In this document: positions 12,517 to 21,101 of the stretch, piece after piece
How the letters are laid out: every line of letters begins with the position of its first letter
Numbering within the stretch: position 1 is the stretch's first letter
Virus record (IMG/VR): IMGVR_UViG_3300042884_000120
Location: 1 to 25,314 of that record
DNA: 25,314 bases
Reading direction: 5' to 3' (one strand)
Source of the DNA: a virus
The notes under the pieces: model-generated
What the model was told of the DNA's origin: nothing
Database searches by the model: none
The model's input: only the letters and a program-made list of their open reading frames with translations
Position numbers and translations under genes: made by a program

Positions 12517-12696
12517 TTATTTATTTTTTTTAACGCCAAACACCAGAGCATTGATGATCCCATCCCGATCTCTGCTGGCTGCAAGTTTCGGGAAGTGATA
12601 GATAAGTTCTTCATCGGTTAATTGATTGAGTTTAACTAATAACATCAGGCTCTTTGGAGTTACCTCAACAGATTGGTCAGAATGGATTATCGTCAT
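12517..12696 (-). CDS. Small hypothetical protein after the helicase gene
   Basis: A 59-aa protein beginning MTIIHSDQSVEVTPKSLMLL. It contains VKLNQLTDEELIYHFPKL and ends in a lysine-rich LVFGVKKNK. The start lies 20 bp inside the end of the helicase gene. It may be a small accessory factor of the replication module, but nothing in the sequence gives a function. Confidence 0.6.
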   Translation of the reverse strand: MTIIHSDQSVEVTPKSLMLLVKLNQLTDEELIYHFPKLAASRDRDGIINALVFGVKKNK

Positions 12697-14080
12697 TGAA
12701 TTGATTTGATTGGAAGTTAAATGCAGTTGATTCGATTGCCACTGGAAGGTAGGAACTCATCGGCTCTTGATTGGCATCGTAGAAGTTGGTGATGGTTTCG
12801 TTATTCCTGAACTCCACAGTTCCGGTAGATCCCTGCCGATGCTTTTCAAATAAGTAGAATGTTTCGTTGGTGTATGGCTTGCCATCATCGTTGGATAAGT
12901 TGTAGTATGATGGTCGATAAACAAAGCACACAGTATCGGCATCCTGCTCCAATGATCCTGATTCTCTCAGGTCGGATAGCATCGGCTTCTTATCTGCCCT
13001 TTGCTCAACTTGTCGATTAAGTTGGCACAGTGCAATGATTGGGATGGCAAGTTCTTTCTGTGCTGCCTTTAGCGTTCTGCTGATCTCTGCTACTTCTGCC
13101 TCCCGATTGCCACCCCTGAAGCCTTCCAATGTCATCAACTGCAAGTAGTCGATTATTACCCACTTACACAGCCCCTTTCTGACTTGCTGCCTAATTACCC
13201 TGATGGCTTCGTGAACTCCGCATCTTGGCTTGTCGTAGATGGTGAATGGCATCTTTTCAACTTCACCAATGGTCGATTCAAAAACGTGAAGTTCTGGTTG
13301 GTTAAGGCTGCCATCCCTTAATCTTTTGGAGTCGATGCTGCCCGTTGCATTTTGCAGGATCAATCGCTGACAAAGTTGTGAAGGGTTCATTTCAAGGTTG
13401 AAGTAGATCCCTGCTTCTTTGGATTGGATGCCGTGAAACAATGCCAGTGCAGTCTTGCCCATCGATGGTCTGCCTGCCAAGATGATAAACTCAGGCTGCC
13501 ATCCACCCGTAAATCTATTGAGTGCAGTAAGCCCTGTGTTCACTCCGCTTGTCTTGCCTTGTCGATTTAGTTCCTGCCGTCTGAAGTATGCCTCCCGTTC
13601 GTCCTTGACAAGATCGGCAGTGGTGATGATATTGGAAACGGTCATACCGGTATCCATAAGTTCGTTAAGTCGCTTGACCATCTCCGATGCTGTAACCTCT
13701 GCATCGTGCCGATCATAAAGACCTATTGACTCCTCAGTGATTATCTGATGTATTTGAGATTTAAGGTAGGTATTTCTAAGTTCAAGAAGGATGGCTTCGT
13801 GAGGCTCAAAGAATCCTGATGTGATCTTGTCAAGTGATTTGCTGATTGTGATTATATCGGCAGTGTCCAGAACTTTGGCGATCTTATTCTCTTGATTAAG
13901 GAAGGTGATGTCGATTGGTTGTTTCTTTTGGTTGAGAGATTTGATGATGTCAAATGCTTTCTTGTATCTGTCATTGGTGAAGTATTCACTTTTTAGTTGA
14001 ACGATGATCTCGTCCTTGTGCTGGTTGGAAGATAGCAAGATGGCGATCATCTTCTCTTCAAGTTCTTGGGATGTTATCAT
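12677..14080 (-). CDS. dnaB: Replicative DNA helicase (DnaB type)
   Basis: A 467-aa hexameric 5'-3' helicase for phage replication. The N-terminal helical domain (about 1-145) is followed by a RecA-like ATPase core. This has TGLTALNRFTGGWQP, Walker A GRPSMGKT (203-210) and the YFNLEM segment. Walker B is WVIIDYLQLM (Asp311), then CQLNRQVEQR (352-361) and LSDLRESGSLEQDAD (368-382), all hallmarks of DnaB. The length is normal. The start overlaps the upstream replication protein as ATGA, as expected for a loader or initiator and helicase pair. Confidence 0.95.
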   Translation of the reverse strand: MITSQELEEKMIAILLSSNQHKDEIIVQLKSEYFTNDRYKKAFDIIKSLNQKKQPIDITFLNQENKIAKVLDTADIITISKSLDKITSGFFEPHEAILLELRNTYLKSQIHQIITEESIGLYDRHDAEVTASEMVKRLNELMDTGMTVSNIITTADLVKDEREAYFRRQELNRQGKTSGVNTGLTALNRFTGGWQPEFIILAGRPSMGKTALALFHGIQSKEAGIYFNLEMNPSQLCQRLILQNATGSIDSKRLRDGSLNQPELHVFESTIGEVEKMPFTIYDKPRCGVHEAIRVIRQQVRKGLCKWVIIDYLQLMTLEGFRGGNREAEVAEISRTLKAAQKELAIPIIALCQLNRQVEQRADKKPMLSDLRESGSLEQDADTVCFVYRPSYYNLSNDDGKPYTNETFYLFEKHRQGSTGTVEFRNNETITNFYDANQEPMSSYLPVAIESTAFNFQSNQFNDDNPF

Positions 14081-14844
14081 TTGTAATGCTCTGTTGATGA
14101 TCTACTAAATTGGATTTGTTGAGGTTTGGAGTTGGCAGATTGGCTCTTTCGATCCCACACTATGCCGATCCAATTATTCATAACTGGCTCTTGCAGGAGT
14201 TCTATTGCCTTGCCTTTATCTGCCCCACACTCTTTTCTAATTTTGGAAGATAGAAGTATTATAGCGTTTTTAGTTGCAGGTTTTTTGATTGTGATGCGAT
14301 GCTTAAGATAATCATTGAAGGCTTTGTTGACTTCAGGATCTTTGAATATTGATAGCTGATCTACTTCATTAGGCTTTTTGAATTGGTAGCTCATCTCAAG
14401 TCTATCGAAATTGAAGGTCGGTATTGATTCGATAGAATCATTAATGTCTTTTATATCTTCTATGTCTTTACTGTCTTTAATAGTCTTATGAATATGGGAT
14501 GTGCTTTGGTACTGCTTAGGTACTTGCTTTGGTACTGCTTTGGTATTTGCTTTGGTATTTTTTACCAACCCAATTACATTAGCAGTGTATTGATTTGAAC
14601 TTGGTTTTATCATCTCAACAAGACCAAATTCGACAAGTTGATCTAAATGCTTTTTGTATGTTTTGTAATTTCCAATTCCAACACAATTCATTATCTGAGT
14701 TGATGTGATGGTGAATGTTTCTTTCCAGTGCAGATCGTTTGCAAGTCGTAAAAGATAGAAGTACATCCCCGCCAATGTCGGGCTGTGTTTATCTGAATTG
14801 GTATCTGCCCAATTCCAATAAAAAGCAAAGTATTCAAACATCAT
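14077..14844 (-). CDS. Winged-helix replication initiator/helicase loader-like protein
   Basis: This 255-aa protein is encoded directly before and overlapping the helicase gene. The N-terminus (about 1-95) looks like a winged helix (MMFEYFAFYWNWAD, ...STQIMNCVGIGNYKTYKKHLDQLVEFGLVEMI). It is followed by a low-complexity linker with NTKA and VPKQ tandem repeats and a KD/ED-rich stretch. A C-terminal helical domain (about 160-240, containing NAIILLSSKI and NNWIGIVWDR) resembles DnaD/DnaT-type helicase-loading domains. I chose ATG 14844, 10 bases after the GGGA, in preference to TTG 14853. It is the first gene after the structured RNA at 14856-14969 and may be controlled by it. Confidence 0.75.
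   Translation of the reverse strand: MMFEYFAFYWNWADTNSDKHSPTLAGMYFYLLRLANDLHWKETFTITSTQIMNCVGIGNYKTYKKHLDQLVEFGLVEMIKPSSNQYTANVIGLVKNTKANTKAVPKQVPKQYQSTSHIHKTIKDSKDIEDIKDINDSIESIPTFNFDRLEMSYQFKKPNEVDQLSIFKDPEVNKAFNDYLKHRITIKKPATKNAIILLSSKIRKECGADKGKAIELLQEPVMNNWIGIVWDRKSQSANSKPQQIQFSRSSTEHYK
14505..14566 (-). repeat. Short tandem repeats in the linker of the replication protein
   Basis: Repeats of about 10-13 bp of the type tgctttggtac (+ strand) encode NTKA, NTKA, VPKQ, VPKQ in a flexible linker. Such repeats can change in copy number by slippage without breaking the fold on either side. Confidence 0.6.
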
Positions 14845-14855
14845 AATTCCCAAAC

Positions 14856-14969
14856 AAAAAGCCCCTTACAAGCTGCGGTCGAAGCGGATCAACAGAATCA
14901 ACTGTCTTTCCTCGCAGCCCGTAAAGGGCGATAAATTTCTTTTTAATTCAGGCTTCGACCTCTGAACTT
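14856..14969 (-). ncRNA. Structured leader or small RNA with kissing hairpins and U tract
   Basis: A TATCTTTG box (14973-14980) would start an RNA of about 110 nt. Hairpin 1: AGTTCAG (14968-14962) pairs with CTGAATT (14951-14945), enclosing a 10-nt loop. Hairpin 2: a continuous 17-bp helix, 14929-14913 with 14877-14861, including three G-U pairs, encloses a 35-nt loop with a small ACAG/CTGT hairpin. Loop 1 bases 14959-14952 (GTCGAAGC) are perfectly complementary to loop 2 bases 14885-14878 (GCTTCGAC), giving an 8-bp loop-loop pairing. TTTTTGTTTG follows hairpin 2, so it could end transcription. Two readings are open: a self-contained small RNA, or an attenuator or riboswitch-like leader of the gene at 14844. 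I could not match it to a known RNA class. Confidence 0.65.
14861..14929 (-). terminator. Terminator-like hairpin with U tract
   Basis: The 17-bp helix of hairpin 2 is followed on the minus strand by TTTTTG at 14860-14855. The large 35-nt loop is unusual for a plain terminator. It may stop transcripts from the promoter at 14973-14980 and from the genes at 15607-14998, conditionally or fully. Confidence 0.5.
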
Positions 14970-14972
14970 TTA

Positions 14973-14980
14973 CAAAGATA
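14973..14980 (-). promoter_or_regulatory. -7 box TATCTTTG upstream of the structured RNA
   Basis: The minus strand reads TATCTTTG, in an AT-rich stretch between the gene ending at 14998 and the structured RNA. A TTTA rather than TTG lies at the 22-base spacing. A related TATCTTTTG lies 40 bp upstream within a repeated 15-nt AT tract (14974-14988 and 15014-15028). Confidence 0.5.
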
Positions 14981-15623: not shown

Positions 15624-15653
15624 CGAATATACGATATATCTTGTATATCTCAA
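15624..15653 (-). promoter_or_regulatory. Promoter with overlapping inverted repeat (possible operator)
   Basis: The minus strand has TTG at 15653-15651 and TATATTCG at 15631-15624 with exactly the same 22-base spacing as the two 73-nt promoters. GATATAC and GTATATT flank an AAGATATATC core, forming an inverted repeat over the -7 box. It lies just before the RHH gene. Confidence 0.6.
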
Positions 15654-15892
15654 TAGCAACTAACCGTAGTTTTCACAGTTACTTTTTTGCCATTCAATGT
15701 TGTACTTGTCGTGCCTTCCATTCCGACCTTAAATGCCTTGACATCTCGGTTGGTCATTCCGCACTTTTCTATTCTGGTCATTTGCGTTTGCGATTCAAAG
15801 CCAGTGGTCGTTGTTGTTACCCTGCAATCGTAGCACTTTCTACAACTTGATAGAGAGGCAAGCAGGATGAGAATTGATAGGGTTGTTTTCAT
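15650..15892 (-). CDS. Small lipoprotein
   Basis: An 80-aa protein with a short signal peptide (MKTTLSILILLASLSSC) and lipobox LSSC, so Cys17 would be lipidated. The mature part begins CRKCYDCRVTTTTT and has further Cys at about 44 and 79. Small secreted lipoproteins with KCYxC are common in Bacteroidota. Encoded in the middle of phage replication genes, it may act at the cell surface, for example in superinfection exclusion; that is inference. It overlaps the nuclease gene at its start as ATGA. Confidence 0.72.
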   Translation of the reverse strand: MKTTLSILILLASLSSCRKCYDCRVTTTTTGFESQTQMTRIEKCGMTNRDVKAFKVGMEGTTSTTLNGKKVTVKTTVSCY

Positions 15893-20534: not shown

Positions 20535-21101
20535 TTAAATTTGTCGAGTCAACTTCTTGACAAGCAACCTTATTGATTCATCAAGCTTCTTAACGCTGTC
20601 GGCAATCATCTCCATTATCGCAGATCGTTCTGATTCCGTTGCCTCCTTATGCTCCATTAACATATCAACCAAGCCACCAATGGAAGTCAATGGCTGGCGT
20701 AGTTCGTGCGAGATCATAAAGCGGAACTCCTCAATCAGCACCTTCTGCCGTTCGTGTTCGTGGGCAGTGATGCTGGTAACATCCACGCAAGGGATGCCGA
20801 TGAAATGAAGTGAATCTAAGATGTAGTAAACATTCCACATATTGTAACGCTCAGAGCCGATCTTCTGCTTGGAACGCACATAAACCCGTTGAGGATCTGG
20901 TGGTCTTGATTTGGATCTGTTAATAGTTGCTAAGAAATCATCCCTATCGCTGTCATTGGATGCAATGTCGAGGATGTTCTTTGGCTTGATATGGCTGCTA
21001 TATTCTTTGAAAAGTTCATTACTTGTCAGTATCAACCCTTCAGAATCGGCTATAACGTAGAATAAATCTATTGAAGATTCAAGAATGTGCAGAGATGCCA
21101 T
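20535..21101 (-). CDS. PAS-HisKA protein lacking the kinase ATPase domain
   Basis: A 188-aa protein built like the front half of a sensor histidine kinase. Residues about 10-115 look like a PAS domain (FYVIADSEGLILTSNELF ... YYILDSLHFIGIPCVDVT). A linker helix follows (HEHERQKVLIEEFRFMI), then the HisKA H-box SHELRQPLTSIGGL with the phosphorylatable His132, and the second DHp helix to the end (SVKKLDESIRLLVKKL). It stops exactly where a HATPase_c domain would begin, with no N, G1 or G2 box, and the stop is clean. It could not autophosphorylate but could dimerise with, or take phosphate from, host two-component proteins; that is inference. A TAAATTTG box lies four bases before ATG 21101. Confidence 0.85.
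   Translation of the reverse strand: MASLHILESSIDLFYVIADSEGLILTSNELFKEYSSHIKPKNILDIASNDSDRDDFLATINRSKSRPPDPQRVYVRSKQKIGSERYNMWNVYYILDSLHFIGIPCVDVTSITAHEHERQKVLIEEFRFMISHELRQPLTSIGGLVDMLMEHKEATESERSAIMEMIADSVKKLDESIRLLVKKLTRQI

Follow-up and report, generated by a model that had tools for sequence, protein, structure and literature searches.

In lambda, nutR-tR1 stands before cII-O-P, and its terminator is read through ahead of O, which comes with iterons and a helicase partner. The CI RNA of P4 is a separate, processed RNA that acts in trans. In the pistol ribozyme, the loop of a 5' hairpin forms base pairs with a strand located between two stacked helices. T4-like phages carry promoter-early stem-loop cassettes (PeSL), which are dispersed and present in many copies. 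The put RNA of HK022 acts in cis, is made soon after an early promoter, and sets the reach of the polymerase into the early genes (PMC9378689).

Here, we describe a structured RNA, a putative leader, in the window, the whole 25,314-nt stretch of viral DNA that was analysed (IMG/VR record IMGVR_UViG_3300042884_000120). The closest systems in working are HK022 put, lambda nutR-tR1, and the P4 immunity RNA, and the nearest topology is that of pistol; none of them is a family match. Like put, the leader would be a cis-acting phage RNA close to a promoter, with an effect on polymerase readthrough into early genes. Put suppresses termination without a terminator of its own, whereas the leader has a terminator within its fold and a covarying 8-bp pseudoknot. 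We know of no sequence relation between the two. Lambda nutR-tR1 shares with the leader a terminator ahead of an O-like initiator with in-gene iterons and a helicase partner, but the fold differs, and no N-like protein is known for the leader. The P4 CI RNA and the leader both involve RNA pairing ahead of a replication operon, together with premature termination; the former pairs in trans, however, and the latter within one RNA. Pistol has the same loop-strand topology, but the partner strand of the leader is on the opposite (3') side, and the leader matches no Rfam model and has no known cleavage site. PeSL and the leader both combine a promoter with a stem-loop between exchangeable genes, whereas the leader is single-copy and located at the replication operon.

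The minus strand carries every element, exactly to the base where the preliminary description had placed them, in the order TATCTTTG box, P1 hairpin, A-rich linker, 17-bp hairpin, TTTTT, and then the ATG at 14844 (Table 1). Its base pair and loop counts for the two hairpins are also correct. The fold energy is −44.4 kcal/mol, compared with −27.8 kcal/mol in shuffles (z = −4.6), and 0 of 200 dinucleotide shuffles match the stability of the native fold. The fold in the window is confirmed as a real and conserved RNA structure. The 5' end of the RNA is predicted near 14966-14969, without transcript data.

Table 1. Features of the RNA and of the replication operon in the window.
Feature	Position	Strand	Description
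Promoter box TATCTTTG	14973..14980	-	Bacteroidota-type -7 box, TAnnTTTG
P1 hairpin	14945..14968	-	stem 14968-14962 / 14951-14945, 7 bp; 10-nt loop 14961-14952
Pseudoknot strand 1, GTCGAAGC	14952..14959	-	P1 loop
Linker, A-rich, single-stranded	14930..14944	-	separates P1 from terminator hairpin
Terminator hairpin P3	14861..14929	-	14929-14913 with 14877-14861, 17 bp, 35-nt interior
Alternative local hairpin GCCC-TTTAC-GGGC	14917..14929	-	predicted within P3 5' strand; would be mutually exclusive with P3
Lone unpaired A	14912..14912	-	P3/P4 junction; invariant in seed alignment
Apical helix P4	14886..14911	-	GGA/TCC, then GACAG/CTGTT; inside hairpin 2
Pseudoknot strand 2, GCTTCGAC	14878..14885	-	8-nt bulge, P4-P3 junction
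T-tract	14856..14860	-	3' of P3; intrinsic terminator
DnaD/lambda O-like replication initiator	14077..14844	-	first operon gene; ATG 14844 or 14841; called ORF starts TTG 14853
About 5 tandem 11-bp repeats (TGCTTTGGTAC)	14502..14557		inside initiator gene; candidate iteron origin
DnaB-like replicative helicase	12677..14080	-	operon gene

With the downstream initiator protein as the query, 13 viral loci were found, and the same RNA, with differing loop octamers, is found upstream of these 13 initiators. The loci came from the protein only, and no search pattern demanded matching octamer strands. Further copies were added through exact-pattern scans; a loose scan pattern gave mostly chance matches. 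The covariance search that the preliminary description had proposed was run with a model of 32 sequences from which the pseudoknot was left out. This model matches 112 places (99 + 13) at approximately 110 IMG/VR loci, with 111 full-length copies (76 distinct sequences) and one that ends at a contig end. Three loci (L309, L315, and L319) were rejected as false matches in which the downstream hairpin is absent. The most divergent copy (L318, 2644-2758) scores 66.8 bits although it is outside the seed; its long stem is largely recoded and its pseudoknot retained, and its phage has another DnaB and another initiator.

Compensatory changes are seen in P1, P3, P4, and the pseudoknot. In these helices together, 97.3% of cells are paired (99.5% in P1 over the 32 sequences, and 97.7% in P3, where 10 of 16 pairs show two-sided changes), and two-sided-change cells number 136 as opposed to 37 in shuffles. 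Few of the unpaired positions are invariant. Compared with a relative (L307), the window has 1 change in 97 RNA backbone positions (approximately 1%) and 17% change in the flanking coding DNA, so the RNA is more strongly constrained than its protein-coding neighbours.

The P1 loop octamer GTCGAAGC (14959-14952) is exactly complementary to GCTTCGAC (14885-14878). For loops of 10 and 35 nt, the estimated probability that some 8-nt stretch matches by chance through Watson-Crick pairing is about 84/65536 (0.13%), in line with the earlier view that such complementarity is unlikely by chance; a chance origin is untenable because the pairing is conserved in relatives. The contact had been called a kissing loop. 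The 8-bp pairing stands, but the loop-loop geometry does not: the second strand is the entire 8-nt bulge joining P4 and P3, with the single unpaired A opposite. Since the partner is exactly this bulge in the folded interior of hairpin 2, the contact is a loop-bulge pseudoknot and not a loop-loop kiss. It is unusual for a folded terminator to have a pseudoknot built into it. The octamers pair by perfect Watson-Crick complementarity in 111 of 111 full-length copies, so homologues do keep the loop complementarity. There are 16 distinct octamers and no G-U or mismatched intermediates, and within the 32-sequence seed, two-sided changes occur in 6 of the 8 pseudoknot pairs and one-sided changes in none.

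The RNA family is previously undescribed, absent from Rfam, and strongly covarying. No Rfam 15 family matches the window or eight diverse relatives at or above its gathering threshold, and only chance-level matches (E > 1) were returned. Among phage GenBank records, nothing matches the RNA at the DNA level, and neither DnaB nor terminase points to a close relative. The covariance model has no match in 395 Bacteroidota genomes; initiator relatives occur in 4 of 296 Bacteroidota genomes, and the RNA is absent at the loci examined. No description of this RNA was found in the literature at the level of titles and abstracts. The family places a structured RNA where the DNA replication of phages is controlled, in a group of hosts for which little is known about RNA regulation of phages.

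Of the 76 distinct upstream contexts, 75 contain TAnnTTWG or TAnnTTT, in most cases 2-4 nt ahead of the RNA. TAnnTTTG boxes are in excess in the window (35 observed, 20.6 expected), which fits a Bacteroidota host. At the other end, at least 7 T are present within the 10 nt spanning the RNA end in 107 of 111 copies; the T-tracts of L294 and L318 are weak. The non-pseudoknot helices contain 63 G-U cells and 3 A-C cells, and this large excess of G-U identifies the folded strand as the one transcribed toward the replication genes. The layout of an attenuator leader is present, with promoter, leader, and terminator hairpin plus U-tract before the first gene. In contexts with a called ORF, the next start codon is 3-15 nt past the model end, leaving no space for a second promoter. 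The earlier proposal, in which a structured RNA carries its own promoter and terminator and serves as a small RNA or a tertiary-folded attenuator, is supported; relatives retain both the promoter box and the replication-operon setting.

The RNA heads the replication operon in every copy with enough flanking sequence. The usual order is a DnaD/lambda O-like initiator and then DnaB. A methyltransferase comes first in L317/L370, followed by initiator and DnaB; another gene comes first in L318/L371, followed by a different initiator and DnaB; and an HNH nuclease comes first in L316, followed by a helicase and a large protein that, from its sequence, looks like a VapE-type primase-helicase. In 105 of 107 loci, tandem repeats lie on the downstream side of the RNA, often with an 11-bp period but with other units too, and they sit inside most initiator genes. 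The origin of lambda is within the O gene, and the relatives likewise have repeats inside the initiator gene; the iteron-like repeats are inferred to be a candidate replication origin. The initiators behind the RNA swap N-terminal domains (MFxYF..., MxxRDTCIFYRSM..., MRKSFILY...) and have a common C-terminal part, even after near-identical RNAs.

Genes upstream of the RNA also vary, and different genes flank near-identical RNAs on both sides. A small lipoprotein-like Cys-rich ORF (window 15650-15892) recurs immediately upstream of the RNA in approximately 28 relatives. Of 48 virus records, 47 carry a single copy, and a dispersed repeat cassette was rejected on this basis. The remaining record, of 52 kb, has two copies (L364, 2216-2323, and L330, 3499-3608) that differ in octamer and backbone, one of them flanked by a VRR-nuclease-like gene and an initiator-DnaB pair. 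This record is perhaps two phages joined in assembly.

We consider it probable that the RNA is the 5' leader of the replication operon and a transcription attenuator in cis, possibly also a translational block. The argument for this is that the T-tract is too close to the start codon for a promoter to lie between them, so replication transcripts should have to pass the terminator. RNA polymerase would start at the TAnnTTTG promoter, and P1 would be made at once. Next would come the hairpin-prone strand, P4, the 8 nt that dock into the loop of P1, the 3' half of the long stem, and the U's, in this order. If the long stem forms, the outcome would be a terminated, pseudoknotted RNA of approximately 110 nt, or a first start codon lying against the stem, which is near enough to impede the ribosome. 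If the 5' strand is kept in its small hairpin, or a factor acts on the pseudoknot, polymerase would read through into the initiator and the helicase, also carrying transcription over the iterons in the initiator gene. The leader may also release the ~110-nt RNA.

Such regulated readthrough is an inference, as is the use of the two hairpins as a switch. Of the 76 distinct copies, 75 have a predicted local hairpin in the P3 5' strand, at approximately −4 to −9.5 kcal/mol, and its register shifts between lineages. These predictions suggest that it would compete with the terminator and offer a switch; the competition itself has not been shown. The signal is inferred more likely to be a phage protein or a trans RNA than a metabolite. 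Several points count against the attenuator. The pseudoknot is compatible with both conformers, leaving its role in a switch unexplained, and there are no transcript, termination, or expression data. The scarcity of invariant unpaired positions leaves no obvious ligand pocket, a few copies have weak T-tracts, and the octamer turns over more than expected for a purely internal pairing.

The same promoter, compact fold, and terminator would also serve a stand-alone phage small RNA with trans targets among host or phage RNAs and an incidental location, and the occurrence of near-identical RNAs with different genes on either side fits this idea. A free small RNA, however, needs neither a start codon 3-15 nt away without space for its own promoter nor a replication-operon location retained even in the distant phage L318, and we regard this reading as rather unlikely. 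Two further readings turn on the kind of molecule and ligand. A single-stranded DNA structure of the replication origin, such as a priming or strand-opening site, would suit the adjoining initiator, helicase, and iteron-like repeats, but G-U is tolerated in a strand-specific manner, and the promoter box before and the T-tract after the fold run in the same direction. It is highly improbable, and a DNA-only structure was rejected for its failure to explain the strand asymmetry. A metabolite riboswitch whose expression platform is a terminator is just as improbable. Known riboswitches do have a pseudoknotted 5' domain preceding a terminator, but here the pseudoknot partner is within the terminator, few unpaired bases are invariant, no Rfam match exists, and the downstream genes serve replication and not metabolism.

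The turnover of the octamer bears on the remaining alternatives to the cis attenuator. Changes were counted on a tree of the RNA from which the pseudoknot columns had been excluded. Of the octamer positions, four vary, and each of these changed 9-16 times, with equal counts on the partner strand, compared with approximately 6.5 changes per column in the linker and 2.4-3.1 in P1 and P3; octamer-type changes on this backbone tree total 27. RNA pairs with only one other difference may carry different octamers. This turnover is fast for purely internal pairing because each change needs two mutations, and its excess over the unpaired linker hints at an RNA specificity code, in which lineage-specific, self-complementary octamers are pressed to differ and recognition of their own kind in trans gates replication. 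If this were true, related phages would exert copy control or superinfection exclusion through octamer recognition. The mean octamer change rate is above that of the rest of the RNA, yet below that of flanking coding DNA, and such a code was therefore not taken as the main reading; we hold it to be quite unlikely and do not claim diversifying selection on the octamer as proven. In a related, very doubtful scheme, the P1 loop pairs in trans with the bulge of an RNA with the same octamer and sets copy number or superinfection immunity. Antisense loops act in this manner in plasmid control and in satellite phage P4 immunity, and the 16 octamers, their frequent changes, and the presence of different octamers on near-identical backbones are in keeping with it. 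However, intramolecular pairing is retained and should outcompete intermolecular pairing, and template switching between the two inverted 8-mers could also yield concerted change. An antisense TAnnTTTG just downstream occurs in 3 of 75 loci, not above control places; with no promoter enrichment, an antisense counter-transcript was rejected. The frequent paired changes raise a testable question, namely whether RNA loops serve phages as a self/non-self signal.

Elsewhere in the window, positions 20535-21101 encode a 188-aa protein that appears to combine the phosphoacceptor motif of a histidine kinase (SHELRQPL) with a PAS region. It has no space for an ATPase domain and matches a PHROG annotated as 'kinase'.
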